44,223 bases of DNA from the NCBI GenBank assembly GCA_023251255.1, contig JAHEZD010000046.1, forward strand, positions 1 to 44,223, read 5' to 3'. The position numbers and the translations under genes are program-made. Source of the stretch: Chitinophagaceae bacterium. GTDB taxonomy: Bacteria; Bacteroidota; Bacteroidia; Chitinophagales; Chitinophagaceae. Below, piece after piece: positions 6,499 to 17,889 of the stretch. The notes below the pieces were generated by a model. The model was not told the DNA's origin. It did not search any database and was given only the letters and a program-made list of their open reading frames with translations. Numbering within the stretch: position 1 is the first letter of the stretch; the number at the start of each line of letters is the position of its first letter.

Positions 6499-6696
6499 AG
6501 AAGCTGTTTGAGTTAATTGTTTGATATTCCTTATCATGCCTTTATGGCTGTCCCGCATCCAATTGCGGGATTGGATCTTCCGCCATAGGTTACTGGCTAC
6601 GGCCGTAAAATCTGCCTTGTTTCGCTCCTGCCCGAATGTTCAGGCGGGCAAAAAATCGCAATAATGCAGGCTGAACAATTAACTCAAACAGCTTCT
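6499..6696. repeat. MITE-like element, copy 1 (198 bp, perfect 23-bp terminal inverted repeats)
   Basis: The left end AGAAGCTGTTTGAGTTAATT plus GTT at 6499-6521 is the exact reverse complement of 6674-6696. The interior, read on the minus strand, has GCCCGCC..TTCGGGCAGGAGCGAAACAAG, shared with copy 2 (18756-18977). It carries no ORF for a transposase. It lies directly upstream of infA and separates the ribosomal-protein operon from the adhesin gene. Confidence 0.8.
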
Positions 6697-6718
6697 TGGA
6701 ATATTTTTTTTGGGATTG

Positions 6719-6750
6719 TTTCATTTTTCAGCAATTCACTCCTATCTTCG
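6719..6750 (+). promoter_or_regulatory. Candidate Bacteroidota promoter of the infA-rplQ operon
   Basis: TATCTTCG at 6743-6750 matches the Bacteroidota -7 consensus TAnnTTTG at all but one position. TTTC at 6719-6722, 20 bp upstream, is a near match to the -33 TTTG. The infA start codon is 16 bp further on, implying a very short leader. It sits just outside the MITE-like element. Confidence 0.45.
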
Positions 6751-6765
6751 CAGCCCGAAAAAATT

Positions 6766-6984
6766 ATGTCGAAACAACAACTAATCAAACAGGACGGAGT
6801 TATTCTAGAAGCACTAAGCAATGCTATGTTCAGGGTGAGGTTGGAAAACGGACATGAAATTCTGGCTACCATATCTGGTAAAATGAGGATGCACTATATC
6901 AGGATCCTGCCGGGGGATAAAGTAGGGGTGGAAATGAGTCCTTATGACTTGACAAGGGGAAGAATCAATTTTAGGTATAAATAG
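6766..6984 (+). CDS. infA: Translation initiation factor IF-1
   Basis: A 72-residue protein starting [20 protein letters not shown], with the S1/OB-fold core [20 protein letters not shown] and the C-terminal [20 protein letters not shown] typical of IF-1, at the family's usual length. IF-1 binds the 30S A site and works with IF-2 and IF-3. The frame is open further upstream to 6664, but that extension lies in the inverted repeat of the MITE-like element and lacks IF-1 homology, so the ATG at 6766 is the start. It is the first gene of the ribosomal-protein run, with rpmJ 23 bp downstream. The secY/map genes that commonly precede infA are not present here. Confidence 0.97.
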
Positions 6985-7007
6985 CTTTTAGCAACAACAA
7001 ACTTTTT

Positions 7008-7124
7008 ATGAAAGTAAGAGCATCAATTAAAAAACGCAGTGTTGACTGTAAGATTGTTAAACGTGGAGGCAAGCTTTACGTAATTAACAAAAAGAATCCT
7101 CGTTTTAAACAAAGACAAGGATAA
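7008..7124 (+). CDS. rpmJ: 50S ribosomal protein L36
   Basis: A 38-residue basic protein, [20 protein letters not shown] and on to [12 protein letters not shown]. Length and sequence match bacterial L36. It has a single cysteine (C14), so it lacks the complete CCCH zinc ribbon of C+ L36 proteins and is of the zinc-independent kind. It lies between infA and rpsM in the conserved order, with 33 bp to rpsM. Confidence 0.97.
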
Positions 7125-7157
7125 TCCTTCATTAACACTCAAAATTCAAGATAGATT

Positions 7158-7538
7158 ATGGCACGTATTGCCGGTATAGACTTACCAAAAAACAAAAGAG
7201 GCGAAATAGGACTTACCTATATCTATGGTATTGGTCGTTCTACTGCTCAGGATATTTTGACAAGGGCTGGTATCAGCCTTGACAAGAAAGTGAATCAATG
7301 GAACGATGAGGAGCAAGCTGCCATCCGTAACATTATCAACGCTGAAATCAAGGTAGAAGGTGCTTTGCGTAGCGAAACCCAAATGAACATCAAACGTTTA
7401 TTGGACATCGCTTGCTACCGTGGTCTCCGTCACAGAAAAGGGTTGCCTGTTCGTGGCCAACGTACCAAAACTAACAGCCGTACAAGAAAAGGGAAACGCA
7501 AGACGGTTGCTGGTAAGAAGAAAGCACCTAAGAAATAG
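7158..7538 (+). CDS. rpsM: 30S ribosomal protein S13
   Basis: 126 residues beginning [20 protein letters not shown], with the helix-two-turn-helix region [14 protein letters not shown] and the C-terminal rRNA-binding stretch [20 protein letters not shown] followed by a Lys-rich tail. It is a 30S head protein that contacts 50S bridges and the P-site tRNA. Length is normal. A 130-bp spacer with a terminator-like hairpin separates it from rpsK. Confidence 0.98.
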
Positions 7539-7551
7539 GAAATTAACCTTT

Positions 7552-7578
7552 AAGCTCCCAGTCAAACACTGTGAGCTT
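7552..7578 (+). other. Hairpin followed by a T-rich run in the rpsM-rpsK spacer
   Basis: AAGCTCCCAGT (7552-7562) pairs with ACTGTGAGCTT (7568-7578) with one mismatch and a 5-nt loop. It is followed by TTGGTTTTTT. This resembles a weak intrinsic terminator or attenuator inside the operon. Confidence 0.5.
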
Positions 7579-7668
7579 TTGGTTTTTTATAAAACCGCTG
7601 GATAATCCTGAATTTTTCAGGGAAGGAGGCGGATATTTTTAGAAGATTACCTCAAACAACAAACAAAA

Positions 7669-8079
7669 ATGGCTAAACCAGTTAAGGCACAGAACAGTGC
7701 CAAAGCGGCTGCAAAGAAAAGGATCGTAAAGGTTGAAGCAGCAGGAGAAGCACGTATCAGTGCAACATTCAACAACATTATCGTGGCATTTACCAACAAG
7801 TCTGGTCAGGTTATCTCCTGGTCATCTGCTGGTAAAATGGGCTTTCGTGGTTCCAAGAAGAACACGCCTTATGCAGCACAGATGGCTGCAGCGGATGCTG
7901 CTAAAGTAGCATTGGATGCAGGGTTGAAAAGGGTGGATGTTTATGTAAAGGGCCCCGGTTCAGGACGTGAAGGTGCTATCCGCTCCATTTCCCAAAATGG
8001 TATCGAAGTGACTTCCATCAAGGACATCACACCTTTGCCGCACAACGGTTGCCGTCCTCCAAAGAAAAGAAGGGTATAG
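7669..8079 (+). CDS. rpsK: 30S ribosomal protein S11
   Basis: 136 residues. After a basic Ala/Lys-rich N-terminus ([17 protein letters not shown]) come the S11 signatures [40 protein letters not shown] and the C-terminal [20 protein letters not shown] followed by PKKRRV. It forms part of the 30S platform near the E-site codon. Length is normal for the family. Its place between rpsM and rpsD is conserved across bacteria. Confidence 0.98.
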
Positions 8080-8127
8080 TAATAGGTCCCAAAGCTCAAT
8101 GGAGCAAGGGGATTTATTGTATAATAG

Positions 8128-8170
8128 GGATGCGTCATTGATTTTTATGATTTTTAATGATGCCGCATCC
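8128..8170 (+). other. Bulged hairpin in the rpsK-rpsD spacer
   Basis: GGATGCG-TCATT (8128-8139) pairs with AATGA-TGC-CGCATCC (8156-8170), with a small bulge and an AT-rich loop. It ends 30 bp before the rpsD start. Candidate regulatory or RNA-processing structure. Confidence 0.45.
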
Positions 8171-8200
8171 ATTCAATAAAAAATCAGACATATATTAATT

Positions 8201-8806
8201 ATGGCACGTTACACCGGTCCTAAGACCAGAATCTGCAGAACTTTTGGTGAGCCAATTTTAGGCAACGCCAAATGGTTATCCAAAAACAGCAACCCTCCAG
8301 GTCAGCACGGAGGAACCAAAAAACGCAAAACACTTGGCGAATATGCCTTGCAGTTGCGCGAAAAACAAAAAGCCAAATACACTTACGGCTTGTTGGAGCG
8401 TCAGTTCCGTAAAACATTCGTGGAAGCTTCTAAAATGAAGGGTGTTAAGGGTGAAAACCTGATCAGATTGTTGGAAGCACGTTTGGACAACACTGTTTAT
8501 CGTATGGGACTGGCTGCTAGCCGCCCGGAAGCTAGGCAATTGGTTGCCCATAAGCACATCAGTGTGAATGGCGATGTGAGGAACATTCCTTCTTACTCCT
8601 GCAAACCGGGTGATGTTATTGCTTACCGTCCAAAGAGTGAGCATAATTCTTCCATCTTGGCTAAGAGCCGTGGCAAGAACCCTAAATTTGGTTGGATTGA
8701 TTGGAACGAAACTGAAAAGAAAGGTACATTCATCACCTACCCCGAAAGGGAACATGTTCCTGAGAACATTAAGGAACAGTTGATTGTAGAGTTGTACTCT
8801 AAATAA
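8201..8806 (+). CDS. rpsD: 30S ribosomal protein S4
   Basis: 201 residues starting MARYTGPKTRICRTFGEPIL. The N-terminal part has the conserved SNPPGQHGGTKKRKTLGEYA and LREKQKAKYTYGLLERQFRK. The S4 RNA-binding domain runs from about residue 92, including RLDNTVYRMGLAASRPEARQ. S4 is a primary 16S-binding assembly protein and, in other bacteria, the autogenous translational repressor of this (alpha) operon. No cysteine zinc finger is visible at the N-terminus. The 128-bp spacer to rpoA contains an inverted repeat. Confidence 0.98.
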   Translation: MARYTGPKTRICRTFGEPILGNAKWLSKNSNPPGQHGGTKKRKTLGEYALQLREKQKAKYTYGLLERQFRKTFVEASKMKGVKGENLIRLLEARLDNTVYRMGLAASRPEARQLVAHKHISVNGDVRNIPSYSCKPGDVIAYRPKSEHNSSILAKSRGKNPKFGWIDWNETEKKGTFITYPEREHVPENIKEQLIVELYSK

Positions 8807-8827
8807 AACGTGAGTCGTAAGTCGGAT

Positions 8828-8851
8828 ATCGCCAGTTCCTTAACTAGCGAT
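8828..8851 (+). other. Hairpin in the rpsD-rpoA spacer
   Basis: ATCGCCAGTT (8828-8837) pairs with AACTAGCGAT (8842-8851) with one mismatch and a 4-nt loop. An outer CGTGA...TCACG pairing extends it. Candidate S4-responsive or processing structure. Confidence 0.45.
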
Positions 8852-8934
8852 TTCCGGTTCACGATTTTTGGGTGTTCACAACTTTGAACGCTGGTATCAA
8901 AAAATTTCCACCACTAAAAATCGGAGAGTATAAA

Positions 8935-9936
8935 ATGGCCATTTTAAACTTCCAGAAGCCGGACAAAATTGTTCTACAGAAAGCGACTGAATTTGACGGA
9001 CAATTTGAATTTCGCCCGTTAGAGCCGGGTTACGGTTTAACTATCGGCAACGCTTTACGCCGTGTATTGCTCAACAGCCTTGAAGGCTATGCAATCACAG
9101 GTATCAAGATTGAAGGCGTTGATCATGAGTTTGCAACTATTAAGGGTATTACAGAAGACGTAACTGAAATTATCCTGAACCTGAAACAAGTAAGGTTCAA
9201 GAAAACAGTTGAACATGATGTAACCACCGAGAAAGTTACTTTGTCAATTAAAGGAAGCACTGAATTCAGTGCAGCCCAAATTGGTGAAGCCAGTCAGAGT
9301 TTCCAAGTAATGAACCCCGAACTGTCCATTTGTACAATGGACAATACTTCAAAGCTGGATATCGAATTGACCATTGCCAAAGGCCGTGGTTATGTACCTG
9401 CAGAAGACAATAAACAAAAGGACAGTGTATTTGGATACATCTCTATCGATTCTATCCACACGCCAATTGTTAATGTAAAATACTCCATTGAAAACTATCG
9501 TGTGGAACAGAGGACAGACTTTGAAAAGCTGATCCTTGATGTGGCTACAGATGGTACGGTTCATCCGGAAGAAGCAGTTAAACAGGCTTCCCGTATCCTT
9601 ATTCAACATTTGATGATCATCACCGATGAGAACATCACTTTTGATAACAGGGAAGACAAGAAAGAAGATGTGGTTGATGAACAAGTACTGCAATTGCGCA
9701 AAGTGCTGAAAACACCATTGGAGGATCTGGACCTTTCGGTTCGTGCATTCAATTGCTTGAAAGCAGCCAAGATCAATTCATTGAGCGAACTTGTTCAGTA
9801 CGAGCAGGAGGACCTGATGAAGTTCAGGAACTTCGGTCAGAAATCATTGTCTGAAATTGACCAAGTGCTGAACGAAAGGGGCTTGAGCTTTGGAATGGAC
9901 CTAGTGAAATTAGGGTTGGACAATTTGGATAATTAA
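8935..9936 (+). CDS. rpoA: DNA-directed RNA polymerase subunit alpha
   Basis: 333 residues starting MAILNFQKPDKIVLQKATEF. The N-terminal dimerisation domain includes FEFRPLEPGYGLTIGNALRR and VLLNSLEGYAITGIKIEGVD. The C-terminal domain (about 255-333) has LDLSVRAFNCLKAAKINSLS and DLMKFRNFGQKSLSEIDQVL for DNA and activator contacts. The frame is open to 8872, but the extra 21 residues do not belong to the family and lie in the hairpin-bearing spacer, so the ATG at 8935 is chosen. Normal length. rplQ follows after 124 bp. Confidence 0.97.
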   Translation: MAILNFQKPDKIVLQKATEFDGQFEFRPLEPGYGLTIGNALRRVLLNSLEGYAITGIKIEGVDHEFATIKGITEDVTEIILNLKQVRFKKTVEHDVTTEKVTLSIKGSTEFSAAQIGEASQSFQVMNPELSICTMDNTSKLDIELTIAKGRGYVPAEDNKQKDSVFGYISIDSIHTPIVNVKYSIENYRVEQRTDFEKLILDVATDGTVHPEEAVKQASRILIQHLMIITDENITFDNREDKKEDVVDEQVLQLRKVLKTPLEDLDLSVRAFNCLKAAKINSLSELVQYEQEDLMKFRNFGQKSLSEIDQVLNERGLSFGMDLVKLGLDNLDN

Positions 9937-9945
9937 TACAGTTCC

Positions 9946-9994
9946 AAGGGTTCAAATGTTTGAATGTTCCAACGTTCCAAATAGTTGAACCCTT
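9946..9994 (+). other. Long-looped hairpin in the rpoA-rplQ spacer
   Basis: AAGGGTTCAA (9946-9955) is the exact complement of TTGAACCCTT (9985-9994). The loop contains two GTTCCAA repeats. Function unknown. Confidence 0.5.
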
Positions 9995-10060
9995 AAAATT
10001 CGGAACCATTCATAACAGCTTATAATTCCTGACACGGTATAAGCTATAAAACAAACAGTC

Positions 10061-10597
10061 ATGCGTCACGGAGACAAAATCAACAATTTAGGCCGCAAGA
10101 AGGCACACAGGGAAGCATTGCTTAGCAACTTGGCTATCGCTTTGATTACCCACAAACGTATCGTAACTACATTGGCTAAGGCAAAAGCTTTGCGTACCTA
10201 TGTAGAACCTTTGTTGACCAAAACAAAGAAAGCAGATACAAAGGAAGCGATCAGCCACCAGCACAGGATCATCTTTAGCCACTTGCAGGACAAAGCTGCC
10301 ACTAAGGAACTGTTCACTGTTGTAGGGCCCAAAATTGCTAGCCGCCCAGGCGGTTATACAAGGATTATCAAATTGGGCATCCGCCCAGGTGATAATGCGG
10401 AGAAAGCAATGATCGAACTGGTTGACTTCAATGAAATCTATGGCAAGGGTATAGCTAAAGCCGCTGAACCTGCTAAGAAAACACGTAGGGCGGGTGCTGC
10501 GAAGAAAAAAGCTGAAACTGCTGCTGCCACAGAAGCTGCACCAGTAACTGAAGCTTCTGCTGAAGTAGCTACTGAAGAACCTAAAACAGAAGAATAA
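10061..10597 (+). CDS. rplQ: 50S ribosomal protein L17 with C-terminal extension
   Basis: 178 residues. Residues 1-115 match bacterial L17 ([20 protein letters not shown], then [20 protein letters not shown] and [20 protein letters not shown]). The remaining ~60 residues are a low-complexity Ala/Lys/Glu tail ([16 protein letters not shown]...EEPKTEE). Such tails are common in Bacteroidota L17 proteins. It is the last gene of the operon, closed by an intrinsic terminator at 10621-10652, and converges on the lanthipeptide locus. Confidence 0.97.
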
Positions 10598-10698: not shown

Positions 10699-11925
10699 TT
10701 ATAGTTGTGGCAGCAGGACCGTTCTTGTTTCTTGGGGGTTGTGTAAACGGAGGTAAAAATGGCCTGTACCGGCAATGCCCATCATTATGCCAGGTGTGTA
10801 CTGGGTACCGTTGAGCCCACTGGGCCAGGCCTCTCTTTTGTTCCTGTATTGCTGTATGCCAGCAATGCCTGCAGCCCTTGCTAGGTCAATATAGTGCTGC
10901 TGGTTACTTTGGAGCAGCACATCCGCATTTCCAGCTATTCCGTGGCACAGGGAGAAGTTGGTACTTGTTAACCCATTTGCAAGGTTATCAGCAACTGTAG
11001 TAGCGGTTGTTCGTAAAGCAATTTGTTCATCGGCCTTTAATTGGTGATCTGAGGTATGTTTTTGTGCATCCAATCTTGACAATGCAATACCCGGCGCACC
11101 ATGGCACCAAGCATTGCCACAGGAACATTTACCTGTTTGTGGCGATGCAACACCCTCACGGTAATCTGGCCAGTTCTGTTGTGAAGCGTCAAACTGTTGC
11201 TGTTCATATTTGAACCCACCTGCGGCAGCCGTATAATAGGTTTTGTTTCCCGTGACAGTGTACAACTGCAGTAAACCATTGGCAATGCCACTTGCCCCAT
11301 GTGAAAAACCAGTTAGGTTTTTATGGGATGGCACGGTTGCCCATGACCACTGATCCAATTGCTTATCAGCTTTATTGCAAAGCACATCCCCAAGTTGTAC
11401 GGCCATGTCCAGGTATTTGGGAATATTGAACCTTTCATAGAAATTCAATAGAACAGGGATGGTTCCGGCAACACCACTCACAACATCTATTTCATGGGAC
11501 CGGATAGTGGTGGTATTTATTTTGTCGAGTAGGTAAATGCCTTCTTTTACCCAGTCTTCCCTTTGCATACTATTGCCTGCATCCACCAGTGTGGATGCAA
11601 TGCCCGCCTTACCGGAGTAGAAGCCATGGTCGTGCGCATGGTGCATCGTGCCCCTGATCTGCTCAATGGTTCCCTCAATTGTTTTTTTCAGGAGCGCATC
11701 ATTGGTTTCCTTATACAGGCAAACAAGGAAATGTGCAATGCCCGAAGTGCCCGAATAGAAATCAGGACCAAAAGAACGGGTAACAACTTTGTATTCACCA
11801 TCCACAAGGTCAATCCAGTTACCGGTCCAGTTGCACTGCTTGTTATTGTGCCAGATACTGCTGTTCATCAAGCTTGTACCTATTTCCCAAGCTGTTTCAA
11901 GGAATATATTGTTGGTGTTGCTCAT
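10699..11925 (-). CDS. Stand-alone LanC-type lanthionine cyclase
   Basis: 408 residues with the seven Gly-rich turns of the LanC alpha/alpha barrel: YSGTSGIAHF (about 57), YSGKAGIAST (103), VVSGVAGTIP (148), FSHGASGIAN (207), WCHGAPGIAL (273), LCHGIAGNAD (326) and MMGIAGTGHF (381). The zinc ligands of this family are present: C274 in WCHG, then C327 and H328; H209 matches the active-site His. WCHGAPGIALSRL is closer to the cyclase half of LanM enzymes than to NisC. Such enzymes add Cys thiols to dehydroalanine or dehydrobutyrine. The start codon overlaps the stop of the HopA1-like gene by 4 bp, so the two are translationally coupled. Last gene of the operon. Confidence 0.93.
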   Translation of the reverse strand: MSNTNNIFLETAWEIGTSLMNSSIWHNNKQCNWTGNWIDLVDGEYKVVTRSFGPDFYSGTSGIAHFLVCLYKETNDALLKKTIEGTIEQIRGTMHHAHDHGFYSGKAGIASTLVDAGNSMQREDWVKEGIYLLDKINTTTIRSHEIDVVSGVAGTIPVLLNFYERFNIPKYLDMAVQLGDVLCNKADKQLDQWSWATVPSHKNLTGFSHGASGIANGLLQLYTVTGNKTYYTAAAGGFKYEQQQFDASQQNWPDYREGVASPQTGKCSCGNAWCHGAPGIALSRLDAQKHTSDHQLKADEQIALRTTATTVADNLANGLTSTNFSLCHGIAGNADVLLQSNQQHYIDLARAAGIAGIQQYRNKREAWPSGLNGTQYTPGIMMGIAGTGHFYLRLHNPQETRTVLLPQL

Positions 11926-12887
11926 ACTGTTTGGAATGGTTGTTTTGAACCCTTATTTAAAAATGGCCTGTTCAGGTCAATGCCATTATCGCTGAACATG
12001 TTCTTGATGGATGCCATACTTGACCTGGTATTTTTTTTACTTTGGTAGGCTGCAATGAGCGCCTTGGCCAATAAGGCCATCCTGTTCATGCCGAAACTTT
12101 CATTGGATAGGGGGTTTTCTGCAATGCCAATACCAGCAGTGTACTTGAAGGTGAACAACGGAACATCTTCCTGCAAGTGGCCTTCCAGTTCCTTTGCCAT
12201 ATTCTCCAGCAACCAACTGCAAACGGTATAATGCTTTTTGGAAATGTACAGTACGCAGGCATCCCTTCTCGAATACAATAAAGGGTTGTTCAGGCATTTG
12301 AAAAGAAAAGGGATATGGTAATAATTGAGCTGCCGGGTTACAGCTTTTACAAGCTTGGGCGCACCATCGCTATCAATGTTCCAGTATATGCGTAACATGC
12401 TGCTTTCGGGACTGAACATCTCATTGCTGTATACATAGTAAAAACCTTGTTGCAGTAGCCTGTCTTCCTTAGGAAGCAGAATGGTGATGGTTTGTTGGGG
12501 CATGGGCAAGTGGGCATGACCATTTTGTTGGTACTGGCCGGGGCCAATGATTTTTGAAAGGGGGCCTTTGCTTACCTCTATTAGGCCATTGGTCAATTGT
12601 TGCCGCACGGTCCACCCACCGTCTGTGAAACCTTTCGAGGAATTGTTTGCAGAAAGCCTGTCAATAAAGGCCTTGCTATCCTGTTCCATTATTGCGGGAA
12701 AATTTGGCATTCCCAACTGAAAGGAAATTTTCTTTGCATAGCATTCGGCGTAAAGTAGGGCCGTAAGCACATCAGCTTTGTCCGAATCCGTATAGGGATA
12801 ATCCTTTTTCCTGAAGCTGAACCTATCTGGAAACACATCCAGTTGCTTGGAGATATTCTTCAGTTCCTCTAATTGTTCTGTTTGCAT
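11922..12887 (-). CDS. HopA1-family protein, probable phospho-Ser/Thr lyase of a lanthipeptide synthetase (LanY-like)
   Basis: 321 residues. The C-terminal half carries the HopA1-family blocks: LRIYWNIDSDGA (165-176), PFLFKCLNNP then RRDACVLYIS (193-216), VPLFTFKYTAGIGIAENP (242-259), ESFGMNRMALLAKAL (263-277) and GIDLNRPFLNKGS (302-314). HopA1-type proteins act with an APH-type kinase in class V lanthipeptide and thioamitide pathways, where the lyase eliminates phosphate from phosphorylated Ser/Thr. No signal peptide or membrane segment is seen. It is 3 bp downstream of the kinase gene and overlaps the cyclase gene by 4 bp. The family call rests on recognised motifs; the lyase role is by analogy. 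Confidence 0.82.
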   Translation of the reverse strand: MQTEQLEELKNISKQLDVFPDRFSFRKKDYPYTDSDKADVLTALLYAECYAKKISFQLGMPNFPAIMEQDSKAFIDRLSANNSSKGFTDGGWTVRQQLTNGLIEVSKGPLSKIIGPGQYQQNGHAHLPMPQQTITILLPKEDRLLQQGFYYVYSNEMFSPESSMLRIYWNIDSDGAPKLVKAVTRQLNYYHIPFLFKCLNNPLLYSRRDACVLYISKKHYTVCSWLLENMAKELEGHLQEDVPLFTFKYTAGIGIAENPLSNESFGMNRMALLAKALIAAYQSKKNTRSSMASIKNMFSDNGIDLNRPFLNKGSKQPFQTV

Positions 12888-12890
12888 GGC

Positions 12891-13976
12891 TTATGGTTTG
12901 ATGCCCAATAAATGTGTCAGGGCCGCTTCTGGGTCCTTGAAGATGTTAAAGGCCAATTGCATGCAGCGCATGTTATTGGCTTGTATCCTGGGGTCGAATA
13001 CTACCCCCTCGATAGCAGTCTGCAATATCCTTGCTGCTGTGTATCTCATGACTTTGATAAGCCAGGTGGCCCTGCTTCCATTGACAAGGCCCTGCATGTA
13101 AGCATAGGTATGGAGGAAGCTATCTATGGAAGCCTGCATGTGTTCCAGTTCAAATGATTGGATACCGGCATGGAGTTGGTAACTGGTGGGTTGCTGGTTG
13201 TCAAATCCAAATATCCATGCGGCTATGTATGATTGCAGTAGGCCTGCCACATCCCAGCAGGGGTCACCAATATCGGCAAGCTCCCAATCAATCAATGTTA
13301 ACTGTGGACCTTCCTTCCCGTTCCCTATCAAAAAATTTACCCATTTGATGTCGCCATGTATAAAATGGGTTTTCTTCCACTCCAGCTTCAATTGCTGCAG
13401 TTCATTGCTCAATACCCCGTTCTGTTGAATAAGGGCAATGAACTTTCCATTTTCTGTATTGTTGGGAAAGAGATGATAGGCGTTGAAATCATTTAGTTGG
13501 AACACCCAAGGCAATTGGTGCGGGAATGCCATCGTTTCCTTTTTGCCAGTTAGGGGTTTATGGTAACCTGCAAGTAGCTTGGCCTGCCTGGCACCAAGTT
13601 CCACAGGGAATGTTTTTGTTTTTAGGTAATGGTCATGCAGGCTGGTAGTGTTAGGCTGCAATGTGGTGACCAATACATTGCGTTGGTCATCATAATCGAG
13701 CAGGGAAGGGATCCCTGTGGAGAAATCGGCAAAGCTCTTATGGCCATGCAATAATTGGTAGGCGCTGGCCTCCCTTTTTAAAACGGAGATGGATGTAGTG
13801 TCCGTACCGCATTGTTTAATGAACATCGAGGGGCCTGTGTTTACATGCACACGCAGTATATTGTTCCTGGTGGCGTGGGATTGCTGTGCCATATAATGCC
13901 CCTGCATGATGTTCCCTTCTTGCAGCAGCCCCCTTTCGGTCAGGTAGTAATGAACGTTCTGGTCTGTAAGCTTCAT
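12891..13976 (-). CDS. APH/choline-kinase-like phosphotransferase, probable Ser/Thr kinase of the lanthipeptide pathway (LanK-like)
   Basis: 361 residues with a protein-kinase-like fold. The candidate ATP-binding Lys is in MFIKQ (K54). The catalytic loop is HFIHGDIKWVNFLI with H207, D209 and N214, and the metal-binding segment is LTLIDWELADIGDPCWD (D230). This places it in the aminoglycoside phosphotransferase superfamily. Next to a HopA1-type lyase and a LanC cyclase, the likely reaction is phosphorylation of Ser/Thr in the upstream precursor rather than antibiotic resistance. It starts 70 bp after the precursor gene, behind a stem-loop, and is followed after 3 bp by the HopA1 gene. Confidence 0.85.
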   Translation of the reverse strand: MKLTDQNVHYYLTERGLLQEGNIMQGHYMAQQSHATRNNILRVHVNTGPSMFIKQCGTDTTSISVLKREASAYQLLHGHKSFADFSTGIPSLLDYDDQRNVLVTTLQPNTTSLHDHYLKTKTFPVELGARQAKLLAGYHKPLTGKKETMAFPHQLPWVFQLNDFNAYHLFPNNTENGKFIALIQQNGVLSNELQQLKLEWKKTHFIHGDIKWVNFLIGNGKEGPQLTLIDWELADIGDPCWDVAGLLQSYIAAWIFGFDNQQPTSYQLHAGIQSFELEHMQASIDSFLHTYAYMQGLVNGSRATWLIKVMRYTAARILQTAIEGVVFDPRIQANNMRCMQLAFNIFKDPEAALTHLLGIKP

Positions 13977-13991
13977 TTGTTTGGGTTTTAA

Positions 13992-14017
13992 ATGCAGGGC
14001 CTGGAAAGGCCCTGCAT
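13992..14017 (-). terminator. Stem-loop between the precursor gene and the modification enzymes
   Basis: An 11-bp perfect stem, ATGCAGGGCCT (13992-14002) with AGGCCCTGCAT (14007-14017), and a 4-nt loop. On the transcribed minus strand it is followed by TTTAAAACCC rather than a strong T run, so a partial terminator or mRNA stabiliser is more likely than a full stop. Such structures between structural and enzyme genes are known in lantibiotic operons. Confidence 0.7.
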
Positions 14018-14046
14018 GGGAAAAACAAAATGGTGGATACTGTTAC

Positions 14047-15165
14047 CTAGCAGATATATGGTATACCTGTGCAGGTAGTGATACATGAAATCACTGGTAC
14101 CGTAGGAAACCCACCCTGCACATTATTGGCCGTACCCTGAACCCCAGATGAGGCATTGGGACAGCTATGCACTGGTAGGTAGGTTGGGATGCACTGCGGG
14201 AAACTTGTAGGGCAACTGTTGGGATATATTGTTGGGAATACAGTCTGTGTTGGTGTTCCTTGTACTGCTTGCTGTTGCGCAGCGCAAATAAATGGCACAC
14301 CGGTACAGGTAACCACGCATGAAACTACAGGTACCGTTGGAAACCCACCTTCTACTTGGTTAGCCTGTAACAGACCATGTTGTTTTGGACCGCAGATGGC
14401 TGGTATAAGCGTATTCTGGCATACGAAAGGAATAGCTGTTACCTTTGGACAAAGCTGGGGCAAACTTGTAATTGGGGGGAATTGGCAATTGGGACCAATA
14501 GCTGTAGGGCATGATGAAATGATTTGCGTTGGTGCGTAGGCCTGTCCTGCCTGCAAATTGCCCGCTTGCTGCTGTGCTGCGCAAATAAATGGCACACCGG
14601 TACAGGTAACCACACAGGAAACAACAGGAATCGTTGGGAATCCAGCTTGGTCGTTCAGGTAGTTCGAGTAGATATCCCCCTGCAGGAATTTGGATTTCGG
14701 GTCACCCTTGCTTTCATTGTCAAAGGATGCATGCAGGGCAAGCATGGAGGAAAACTGGTTGTCATCAATGTCGCTTGCATTGGCAACAAGGCCACGGATA
14801 AAAAAGTGGTTCTGGTAGCTTGCATATTTCCATCCTAAAACCGGGACATTGATACCTATTTTGAAGCCTGCATCAAAACTGGTAATGTTGCCGCTTTTGG
14901 AAAAATTGGTGACGGTAATCTGGAGCTTGAACCTGCTGAATGGTTCCCAATCGAAGTTCACATTGTTTGTAAGCTTGAATGTTTTTGAAAAGGACCCAAC
15001 GGGGGAGTTAAAAGAAACCACTAGGGCTGCATAACCATCAACTACGTTAGGATAAGCACAGGCGCTACAGCCCATGAAGGTCGGTGTGCAGAAATGTGCA
15101 CCTGAAATACTGTCATAGCCAGCATACAGTTCGCCCTCTTCCACTTCTGTTAAAAGATTTGACAT
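14047..15165 (-). CDS. Large Cys-rich multi-module protein, candidate lanthipeptide precursor
   Basis: 372 residues from MSNLLTEVEEGELYAGYDSI. The frame is open to 15306, but MSN at 15165 gives an acidic leader-like start and is preferred. Residues 1-36 include FCTPTFMGCSAC. About 40-170 looks like one globular domain that I do not recognise. The C-terminal 200 residues contain three 21-residue modules at 175-195, 274-294 and 352-372 with core SCVVTCTGVPFIC (third: SCITTCTGIPYIC). Each is preceded by AGFPT or GGFPT, and the third ends exactly at the stop. Two Pro/Cys-rich segments (SCPT..PNC, SCPTSFPQC) lie between. It has 20 Cys and no signal peptide. As first gene of the kinase-lyase-cyclase operon it is the likely substrate. 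Alternative: a structural protein that is crosslinked rather than cut into peptides. Confidence 0.78.
   Translation of the reverse strand: MSNLLTEVEEGELYAGYDSISGAHFCTPTFMGCSACAYPNVVDGYAALVVSFNSPVGSFSKTFKLTNNVNFDWEPFSRFKLQITVTNFSKSGNITSFDAGFKIGINVPVLGWKYASYQNHFFIRGLVANASDIDDNQFSSMLALHASFDNESKGDPKSKFLQGDIYSNYLNDQAGFPTIPVVSCVVTCTGVPFICAAQQQAGNLQAGQAYAPTQIISSCPTAIGPNCQFPPITSLPQLCPKVTAIPFVCQNTLIPAICGPKQHGLLQANQVEGGFPTVPVVSCVVTCTGVPFICAAQQQAVQGTPTQTVFPTIYPNSCPTSFPQCIPTYLPVHSCPNASSGVQGTANNVQGGFPTVPVISCITTCTGIPYIC
14050..14643 (-). repeat. Three coding repeats for the SCxxTCTGxPxIC module
   Basis: The modules lie at 14581-14643, 14284-14346 and 14050-14112. The first two are close at DNA level, including the downstream AAQQQA codons (compare GCGCAAATAAATGGCACACC at 14279 and 14579), which points to recent duplication. 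The third is more diverged and ends the gene. Confidence 0.85.
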
Positions 15166-15791: not shown

Positions 15792-16463
15792 TTAGTAAAT
15801 AAGCTCGTAAATATTGTGTTTCACGGCAAACAACACGAGACCGGCCGTATTGTGGCAACCAATTTTGGCCATGAGGTTATTGCGGTGGCCCTCTGTGGTA
15901 CGCACACTTATAAAAAGTTTGGCAGCAATCTCCGCATTGCTTTTTTCATTGCAGATAAGTAGCAGGACCTCTTTTTCCCTTGCTGAAAGGTCAATGGGAA
16001 TATTGTCGATGTTCGTAACGGAACGGTCCTTTTTATTGTTGTTGTTCTGGATGGCCTTCAGTACCTGTGCATTAATGTAGAAATCCCTTTTGTGTACGGT
16101 TTCAATGGCATTCACCAGTTCCTCCTTGTCGCAGTTCTTGAAAAGGTAACCACTGGCCCCGGCATCGATCATCCGCGCAATCAATCGTTCACGCGCATGT
16201 ATGGACAGTACAATTGTTTTGATGGTGGGGTAACTGTTTCGTATGGCAGCATTCAGCGCCACACCGTCCATACCGGGCATCTCCATGTCCATGAGTATGA
16301 TATCAGGACCCGGGACAGTGCCTTTCAATTGCTCAAGGCAATCAATCCCGTTCTCCGCAGCAAAAACCAGTTGGAACCCTTTAATGGATTTGATCAACGT
16401 GGCCAAGCTTTGCAGGAACAGTTTCTGGTCATCAACCAGGGCTATGCGTATGGGGTTCGTCAT
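15792..16463 (-). CDS. NarL/LuxR-family response regulator
   Basis: 223 residues. The receiver domain (1-120) has acidic D11/D12, phosphoacceptor D59 in IILMDMEMPGMDG, and K109 in GYLFKN. The LuxR-type helix-turn-helix (about 158-220) reads LSAREKEVLLLICNEKSNAE, then TTEGHRNNLMAKIGC. It is the last gene of a four-gene minus-strand operon, 17 bp after the cognate kinase. The lanthipeptide operon begins 627 bp further in the same direction, so it is a candidate regulator of that locus by proximity only. Confidence 0.93.
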   Translation of the reverse strand: MTNPIRIALVDDQKLFLQSLATLIKSIKGFQLVFAAENGIDCLEQLKGTVPGPDIILMDMEMPGMDGVALNAAIRNSYPTIKTIVLSIHARERLIARMIDAGASGYLFKNCDKEELVNAIETVHKRDFYINAQVLKAIQNNNNKKDRSVTNIDNIPIDLSAREKEVLLLICNEKSNAEIAAKLFISVRTTEGHRNNLMAKIGCHNTAGLVLFAVKHNIYELIY

Positions 16464-16480
16464 GGGTCAACATCGTTTTT

Positions 16481-17254
16481 TCAAAGCGTTACTTGGATAT
16501 CCATGCCAAAGCCCTTGCCGTTCATTGGCAACATACTGGACCTGGCTCCGATCATGTTCAACCTGCTTTCTATGTTCTGCATTCCCATTCCGCTCTTGCT
16601 GATGGTAGCTGGAAGGCCAATACCATCGTCAGTATATTTCATGAGCAGGATGCCGTTTTCCATGGAAAAACAAATGGCAATGTTCATGGCCCCGGCATGT
16701 TTGATGGTATTGTTGATAAGTTCGGCCAATACCCTGTACAGCGCCAGGGAGGAAACATCATCCAGCGCAAAATTAGTTTCTTGTATGGTAGAGCGGAGGT
16801 CGATATTTAGTTGCTTTGATTGGTTCACACTTGCACAAAGGTCCTCAATGGCATCCAGGAAACCATAGGCACCCGTTCTTAAAGGCGACAGGTTGTGCGA
16901 AATGTTCCTTACATCGGTGATTACCTTGTCAATAATGGGCTTGCACTGATGGAGGGAGGAGGTTTGTTGTTCATGTAACGGCTCCCCGTTTGGGGAATTT
17001 TCAATGATCATGCGTAATGAGGAAAGGGCCGAACCCACTTCATCGTGCAGGTCCATGCCTATGCGCTTCCGCTCTTCCTCCTGCGATTGGATGATGGCTG
17101 TTAAAAGGTCTTTCTGGTGCTGTGTTTCAGCCTCACTTAATTTAAGTTGCTGCAGTGTAAGCCGCTTTTGGTACCTTAAGTAAAACAGTACAATGGCCAC
17201 AGCAATCAATAATGAAAAGCACATGCCTGCAATCACCAATAAGTAAGGGTTCAT
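16481..17254 (-). CDS. NarL-type sensor histidine kinase (HisKA_3)
   Basis: 257 residues with one N-terminal membrane helix (about 4-25, YLLVIAGMCFSLLIAVAIVL). The HisKA_3 dimerisation box is EEERKRIGMDLHDEVGSALS with phospho-His H70. The ATPase has N-box LAELINNTIKHAG, G1-like TDDGIGLP and G2-like GMGMQNIESR. No periplasmic sensor domain is present, so sensing probably depends on the upstream multi-pass membrane protein, whose stop overlaps this start by 4 bp. It pairs with the response regulator 17 bp downstream. Confidence 0.93.
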   Translation of the reverse strand: MNPYLLVIAGMCFSLLIAVAIVLFYLRYQKRLTLQQLKLSEAETQHQKDLLTAIIQSQEEERKRIGMDLHDEVGSALSSLRMIIENSPNGEPLHEQQTSSLHQCKPIIDKVITDVRNISHNLSPLRTGAYGFLDAIEDLCASVNQSKQLNIDLRSTIQETNFALDDVSSLALYRVLAELINNTIKHAGAMNIAICFSMENGILLMKYTDDGIGLPATISKSGMGMQNIESRLNMIGARSSMLPMNGKGFGMDIQVTL

Positions 17255-17889
17255 TTGGGCGCTTTGTATTTAATGAAGGCAATCGAGAAAAAAATATACA
17301 TTACCATTACCAATATTGCATGAATAATCCATCCAATATCATATATCCATTGTGGGGCGGTTAAGAATTCAGGAAAAAGGAACAGGAACAATGACCCTGA
17401 GAAGTAAAGAAGGAAACCGACATTTATCCAAATCAACGCAACATTTTCTTTCAGGCTGGGCAAATTTGCACCTAGTAACTTATAAAATAGAAATAAACAA
17501 TAAACAATTGTAACCACTGTTTCAAATGAAAGGGTATAGCTATTGAACCTGAGGAAACCTTGCCATAATATTGTACTAGCTATTGCAAAAACAAAAAAAA
17601 CAAAAATCATTGGTACAATAACCTTTTCAATCTTTGTCGATGCCAAGGTTTTTTTATAAAATAATGAACAGAGAATAAACTCTGAAAGAGCAAAGACATG
17701 GAATACAGGCATATTATTAATTCCCCTATCAGCCAAAAGGTTGGATACACCATTGGTTATACCGGATATTAATGCAAACACCACAATTACCCTTAGATGA
17801 AAAGGGAGTTTTTTGAAATGCATAATACCCAGCACAATTGGAATCAATACCGTCAAGGGTACCACTGTTCCCAAAAAGAAAATCACCAT
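17251..17889 (-). CDS. Multi-pass membrane protein of the two-component operon
   Basis: 212 residues, almost entirely hydrophobic, with about seven predicted membrane segments (VIFFLGTVVPLTVLIPIVLG, VIVVFALISGITNGVSNLL, VIVPMIFVFFVFAIASTI and others). No catalytic motif is visible. A 4-bp overlap with the histidine kinase start suggests a shared complex, perhaps as the sensory input of the domain-poor kinase. I recognise this type from Bacteroidota two-component operons but not a specific family. Its start is 17 bp after the preceding hypothetical gene. Confidence 0.75.
   Translation of the reverse strand: MVIFFLGTVVPLTVLIPIVLGIMHFKKLPFHLRVIVVFALISGITNGVSNLLADRGINNMPVFHVFALSEFILCSLFYKKTLASTKIEKVIVPMIFVFFVFAIASTILWQGFLRFNSYTLSFETVVTIVYCLFLFYKLLGANLPSLKENVALIWINVGFLLYFSGSLFLFLFPEFLTAPQWIYDIGWIIHAILVMVMYIFFSIAFIKYKAPK

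Follow-up and report, generated by a model that had tools for sequence, protein, structure and literature searches.

A probable class Vb-type lanthipeptide operon with a giant multi-cassette precursor in a Chitinophagaceae bacterium

The window analysed here is a stretch of 44,223 nucleotides from a Chitinophagaceae bacterium (contig JAHEZD010000046.1 of assembly GCA_023251255.1). Between 10699 and 15165 it contains four genes on the minus strand, which encode a Cys-rich putative precursor (14047-15165; 372 amino acids (aa) with the initial Met, from the open reading frame (ORF) call), an APH-superfamily, LanK-like kinase (12891-13976; 361 aa; PF01636), a HopA1-family, LanY-like lyase (11922-12887; 321 aa; PF17914), and a zinc LanC cyclase (10699-11925; 408 aa; PF05147). 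The positions of the genes and their spacing of 70, 3 and -4 bp, as given in a preliminary description of this DNA, are reproduced. A mechanical ORF list holds a longer, TTG-start form of the precursor ORF that extends to 15306; relatives start at the ATG at 15165. Because the four genes recur jointly in related loci, their grouping is more than chance. We consider it probable that they form a class Vb-type lanthipeptide operon, with a giant multi-cassette precursor as the substrate.

The precursor comprises a leader and a repetitive core. A beta domain of the leader (residues 33-124; 14794..15069, minus strand, as for all features of the precursor) is predicted by AlphaFold2, and the leader alignment defines the sequence FLQGDIY (residues 160-166; 14668..14688) as a proposed recognition motif. 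The chain then carries three 21-aa cassettes: GFPTIPVVSCVVTCTGVPFIC (residues 175-195; 14581..14643), recognised as a DNA repeat family, and, from the sequence, GFPTVPVVSCVVTCTGVPFIC (residues 274-294; 14284..14346) and GFPTVPVISCITTCTGIPYIC (residues 352-372; 14050..14112), the last of which reaches the final residue. Between them lie a variable segment with five Cys and Q/A-rich linkers (residues 196-273; 14347..14580) and another with three Cys and linkers (residues 295-351; 14113..14283). Altogether the core, of the kind designated type A below, has 17 Cys and 34 Ser/Thr. Tandem Repeats Finder reports no array in the precursor; spaced direct repeats are present in its DNA instead. The protein has no Pfam or NCBIfam match and no related sequence among solved structures, and its leader has no match among plasmids.

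All three enzymes match their expected profiles above cut-off in the searches that the preliminary description had proposed. The kinase matches PF01636 (E=8.4e-12) and, consistent with the HGDIKWVN sequence noted earlier, has HGD at 207 as well as IDWE at 229; its H207, D209, N214 and D230 are conserved in 42/42 alignment rows. Its score with the LxmK model NF038156 is 59.6 bits, under the cut-off of 315. The 321-residue protein is confirmed as a HopA1 homologue by PF17914 (E=1.2e-39). Specifically, a 41-row HopA1 alignment shows R166, K197, R207 and Y214 in each of its 36 Bacteroidota rows, among them that of the window. Residues K197, R207 and Y214 are spaced like K219, R229 and Y236 of CaoY, and the distance from R166 to K197 is 31 residues, compared with 32 from R187 to K219 in CaoY (CaoY numbering from an excerpt of PMC9486802). 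R166 is probably the counterpart of R187 in the alignment. The five Cyanobacteria rows keep both Arg, with Lys and Tyr absent as aligned here. LanC matches PF05147 (E=3e-61), and its zinc ligands C274, C327 and H328 are complete, as had been claimed, and occur in 37/38 rows, the remaining row being cut by a contig end; nine GxxG turns were counted instead of the seven reported before. The best NCBIfam model for LanC is LanM (278.5 bits, below the cut-off of 304, and covering the C-terminal part of the model only), and its best PDB sequence match is LicM2.

Class Vb lanthipeptides are made by a stand-alone LanK (PF01636) and LanY (PF17914), with LanC as the cyclase (excerpts of PMC12291118 and PMC12328550). 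The window encodes a PF01636 kinase, a PF17914 lyase with the Arg/Lys/Arg/Tyr residues, and a LanC with its zinc ligands. The preliminary description had proposed a hybrid synthetase without a characterised example. Its combination of a class V-type dehydration pair with a stand-alone LanM-like LanC holds, as does its view of the modular protein as the probable substrate; the claim of an uncharacterised hybrid fails because the class Vb trio of LanK, LanY and LanC is already in print (SmoA/SmoC; PMC12328550, PMC12291118), and that reading is ruled out. Judged from sequence, the enzyme trio is class Vb in kind and not new, and the novelty lies in the substrate. The system shares with SmoA/SmoC the stand-alone kinase, the HopA1-type lyase and LanC. 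The Smo precursor of Pei et al. 2022 is reportedly short, with one core, and from an actinomycete, whereas the precursor here has 372 aa, several cassettes and a Bacteroidota host.

Other known systems resemble the locus in part. Like class Va systems (cacaoidin, lexapeptide, pristinin), it has LanK and LanY, with lyase residues that match CaoY. Class II resembles it in that LanC here is nearest to the cyclase domain of LanM, but LanM is a fused enzyme, whereas here a 408-aa LanC stands alone and the LanM model cut-off is not reached. In class II, prochlorosin diversity arises from many separate short precursors. Class Va has aminovinyl-methylcysteine (AviMeCys), LanD and LanX and is without LanC, according to the available part of PMC12291118, whereas LanC is present here; no flavoprotein was found among eight scanned window proteins, and no search for LanD or LanX was made elsewhere in the genome. 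Several cores per precursor are also found in microviridins/graspetides (PMC5934393, in excerpt) and cyanobactins (PMC13343206, in excerpt), which differ from this system in chemistry. For lanthipeptides, multiple cores are described as not yet reported in the part of that 2026 paper (PMC13343206) that was available. Class V itself is stated to be known solely from actinobacteria in an excerpt of a 2025 review (PMC12328550). In section 7 of PMC9486802, as available, class V precursor mining was restricted to ORFs of <110 residues bearing Cys and Ser/Thr at the C-terminal end, and gave two clear precursor types (actinobacteria, cyanobacteria) and a mixed third. The precursors described here exceed that size, with 372 aa in the window and 254-1119 aa in complete relatives. 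No giant class V precursor was found in the literature searched, an absence that is weak because few subscription papers were covered.

HopA1 is rare in the order, being found in 4/298 genomes including this one, and no other genome in a phylum sample of 395 has it. A genome search shows that the host genome, which is 98% complete, has a single HopA1 and a single LanC. Relatives were collected by a HopA1 peptide-pattern scan of one genome per species over 84,980 species. Of the 41 loci obtained, 36 are from Bacteroidota and 5 from Cyanobacteria. The order kinase-HopA1-LanC on one strand is kept in all 36 Bacteroidota loci, a neighbourhood survey having been suggested in the preliminary description. 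A Cys/Thr-rich protein is encoded directly upstream of the kinase in each of the 35 with upstream sequence, so that homologous loci do carry the modular protein. Complete precursors contain 12-89 Cys; the shortest, in L042, has 254 aa and the longest, in L033, has 1119 aa and 89 Cys. At contig ends, L032 starts at the kinase and the L019 precursor is cut at its 5' end; L015 and L040 have <800 bases upstream of the precursor. Judged by their length and content, L033/L006 and L048/L007 were treated as the same contigs, each pair being counted once. Neither L008 nor the loci of Aliiroseovarius and Deinococcus enter the precursor statistics.

The precursors fall into three types. Type A comprises the window and L014-L023; its leader, of ~160 residues and 30-44% identical to that of the window, has the LxGDIY motif, followed by FPTxPVxSCxxTCTGxPxIC-like cassettes and A/N/Q-rich linkers. 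Type B comprises 16 loci from Kordia, three Hymenobacter, other Flavobacteriaceae, one Saprospiraceae and one unclassified Bacteroidia, with GPTGTQGCT-like units in Kordia and AQAQ linkers in 15. Ten type-B loci have a separate small upstream ORF related to the type-C leader, with the motif FFQGDIYQQY in L024, L026 and L052 and FFEGKIYQEY in L035. Type C comprises nine loci from Spirosoma, Larkinella, Flavisolibacter, Arcicella, one Hymenobacter and Saprospiraceae; a different leader, ending in FLEGDIMQQY or similar, precedes a Cys-rich core with, in most, an F[ND]PY tail. The core of L007 consists of regular 12-aa units.

These unlike leaders have one FLxGDIYxxY motif in common. G-D-I-Y is invariant in 10 aligned type-A leaders, and the type-A and type-C leader profiles align over 23 columns, in the motif stretch only (prob 84.8, E 6.5e-6). 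The AlphaFold2 model of the type-A leader is an antiparallel beta meander with two helices (mean predicted local distance difference test (pLDDT) score 63.8; ~74-87 per ten-residue block over residues 21-120, <50 in the motif region), and that of the type-C leader is a smaller beta domain (mean pLDDT 77.1), from shallow alignments of 10 and 12 rows, respectively. Foldseek finds no match to either model in the PDB at E<=0.001.

The composition of the cores supports the Cys-rich protein as the probable substrate, as do its position directly upstream of the kinase and its conservation. In type A, 99.6% of 279 Cys have Ser/Thr at positions -6 to -2, compared with 65% in shuffled cores; in type B the values are 99.7% of 639 and 63%. 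None of 200 shuffles reaches the observed value in either type. With distinct Cys contexts counted once, the fractions are 0.990 of 97 (type A) and 0.994 of 345 (type B), and 61% of the distinct type-B contexts have Ser/Thr at -5. The pattern is directional: Ser/Thr lies before Cys in 73/74 and after it in 74/99 for type A, and before in 283/285 and after in 226/348 for type B. L036, which has no recognised leader motif, and all type-B proteins were counted whole. Consistent with the division of the precursors, types A, B and C are each split off by one branch with 99-100% support in a 34-row tree of the concatenated enzymes. Its rows do not include the five Cyanobacteria, L030 and L044, or L008 and L042, for which a clustered HopA1 row is lacking.

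The gap between the precursor and kinase genes contains a hairpin with an 11-bp stem (13992..14017, minus strand; z -5.2), a proposed attenuator, which a simple terminator scan does not report as a terminator. Hairpins with z < -3, computed with a simple custom shuffler, are present in 34/36 such gaps (the exceptions being L030 and L039), and an unbroken stem of >=10 bp is present in 36/36, which we also count in favour of a substrate role for the Cys-rich protein. Hairpins of this kind keep the precursor above the enzymes in operons of ribosomally synthesised and post-translationally modified peptides. Upstream, in the leader of the precursor messenger RNA and 23 bases before the ATG, lies a DUF805b cis-regulatory RNA (Rfam RF02914; 15188..15222, minus strand; 47.3 bits, gathering threshold 35.6). 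Of the 10 other type-A loci, three (L018, L022, L023) have an above-threshold match to the DUF805b clan, whereas four type-B/C loci searched have none, and a loose form of the pattern lies upstream of 10/10 type-A precursors with 5' sequence. A second DUF805b-like pattern is seen at L021:6257-6281, ~770 bases before the copy at the precursor.

We propose a mechanism in which the chemistry, the ring pattern, and the roles of motif and hairpin are predicted. In the core, which carries almost no charge, LanK would phosphorylate Ser/Thr residues, chiefly Thr. LanY would eliminate the phosphate to give dehydroamino acids, and zinc LanC would add the following Cys, so that each molecule acquires many (methyl)lanthionine rings. 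Recruitment of the enzymes would fall to the FLxGDIYxxY motif at the end of the folded leader domain, while the hairpin behind the precursor gene would keep the substrate above the enzymes.

Several observations, including those on maturation given below, weigh against this interpretation. The choice of loci by HopA1 peptide patterns makes for a biased sample; repeats recur inside single relatives and across them, so the Ser/Thr-Cys counts are not independent; type-B ORFs encode a core but no leader; the type-C pattern is weaker (84.9% against 56.5% in shuffles) and without direction (124/148 before, 118/145 after); and the deeper order of the tree is uncertain, because the tool flags long branches that meet. 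The Cys-rich protein could in principle be a partner that binds metal or is rich in disulphides, in which case the enzymes would modify some small unannotated peptide. Published class V precursors are indeed small (PMC9486802, in excerpt), and one type-C protein matches a tandem CCCH zinc-finger model (2.6e-8), which we take as a composition effect. We nevertheless regard such a partner as very improbable, given the precursor position, the matching enzyme tree, and the directional Ser/Thr-Cys pattern of types A and B. The type-A and type-C leaders, moreover, are each found in 1/298 genomes of the order, both among the four that bear HopA1, although these numbers are small.

Maturation is the part of the best explanation held with the least certainty. 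A gene for a subtilase with a pro-kumamolisin domain (S53-type; Pfam-checked in L006 and L024, relatives found by tblastn) lies upstream of the precursor in 15/16 type-B loci and an S8 subtilase gene in 4/9 type-C loci, a protease gene thus preceding 19/25 type-B and type-C precursors. AQAQ occurs in the core of all 15 type-B precursors with the S53-type gene. It is absent from L037, the type-B locus without that gene, where a 420-aa protein with no Pfam match occupies the protease position; by eye this protein resembles an aspartic protease. AQAQ occurs once in L036 (type C). The nearby S53/S8-type protease of types B and C probably cuts the linkers and releases several peptides per precursor. 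Around the type-A loci neither of these proteases turned up, and genome searches of the host found no pro-kumamolisin domain and no C39 peptidase (0 matches; the control is positive in 8/14 genomes). With the genome 98% complete, we reject export by a C39 transporter of its own. Because of this lack of a nearby protease and a C39 exporter, cutting or export in the window would need unlinked genes, or the product would stay whole.

The same absences favour a product that undergoes the same chemistry and is never cut, in which the repeat region of 200-1100 residues would be one thioether-stapled protein, with a role that may be cell-associated, structural, or in sequestration or storage. This alternative is in keeping with long regular cores, of which L007 with its 12-aa units is an example. 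Out of keeping with it are the protease genes upstream of type-B and type-C precursors, the low-complexity linkers, and the shared presence and absence of AQAQ and the S53-type gene in type B. Across the family we hold an uncut protein to be a tentative and less likely outcome, and for the window it is a serious rival.

Upstream of the precursor, the window encodes a LuxR-type response regulator, a histidine kinase and a 212-aa protein without a family (15792-17889, minus strand). The operon is convergent with the adjoining plus-strand genes (6664-10597), which by eye we take to be ribosomal protein genes and rpoA. In L041 and L043 the kinase gene is preceded by a tandem pair of Cys-rich genes, each with a leader.

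Other loci depart from the common arrangement. No LanC match was found in the stretch examined of the five Cyanobacteria loci; L046, L047, L049, L051 and L053 (Calothrix/Dulcicalothrix) have kinase-HopA1 pairs without LanC, followed by the same ~138-aa gene. Their HopA1 proteins, without the catalytic Lys and Tyr columns, perhaps have a different activity, or are misaligned. On a Runella rosea plasmid (L009:11000-12750) the HopA1 match is in two pieces, with no LanC annotated in the stretch, and the locus looks decayed. On a plasmid of Deinococcus sp. QL22 (L010), the HopA1 match falls within an 800-aa gene whose annotation is that of a LanC family protein; HopA1 and LanC are probably fused in it, and the next gene noted encodes an S8 peptidase. 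An unannotated ORF (L010:5880-6446) immediately precedes the kinase gene and has a type-C-like leader, which the type-C leader profile matches with prob 95.9; the match to L008 is weak (prob 36.5). In the plasmid collection the same split kinase-HopA1-LanC trio is annotated in Aliiroseovarius crassostreae, preceded by an 80-aa ORF (L011:6407-6649) with the units CVSVAFTAGC, CVSVLFTAGC and CGKVMFTAVC. This ORF is possibly a small multi-cassette precursor without a separate leader, and with its three similar units, repeated cassettes may therefore reach beyond Bacteroidota.

Taken together, the loci lead us to favour, with moderate confidence, a family of giant lanthionine substrates, with repeat cores of up to 1100 residues that would acquire many thioether rings from a class Vb synthetase, be kept whole or cut into many ringed peptides and, in Kordia, maybe be guided by a separately encoded leader domain. 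If so, this would be, stapled or cut, the first multi-cassette lanthipeptide substrate, as judged by the available part of PMC13343206 and the literature searched. Lanthipeptide synthetases would then take precursors ~2-10 times the 110-residue limit of class V mining (PMC9486802, in excerpt), one chain could bear as many as tens of rings, and class V chemistry would extend to Bacteroidota. The family would account for precursors missed by size-limited mining, and engineering would gain a multi-cassette lanthipeptide scaffold. Testable models of substrate recognition would come from the leader motif and from the separate Kordia leader domain.

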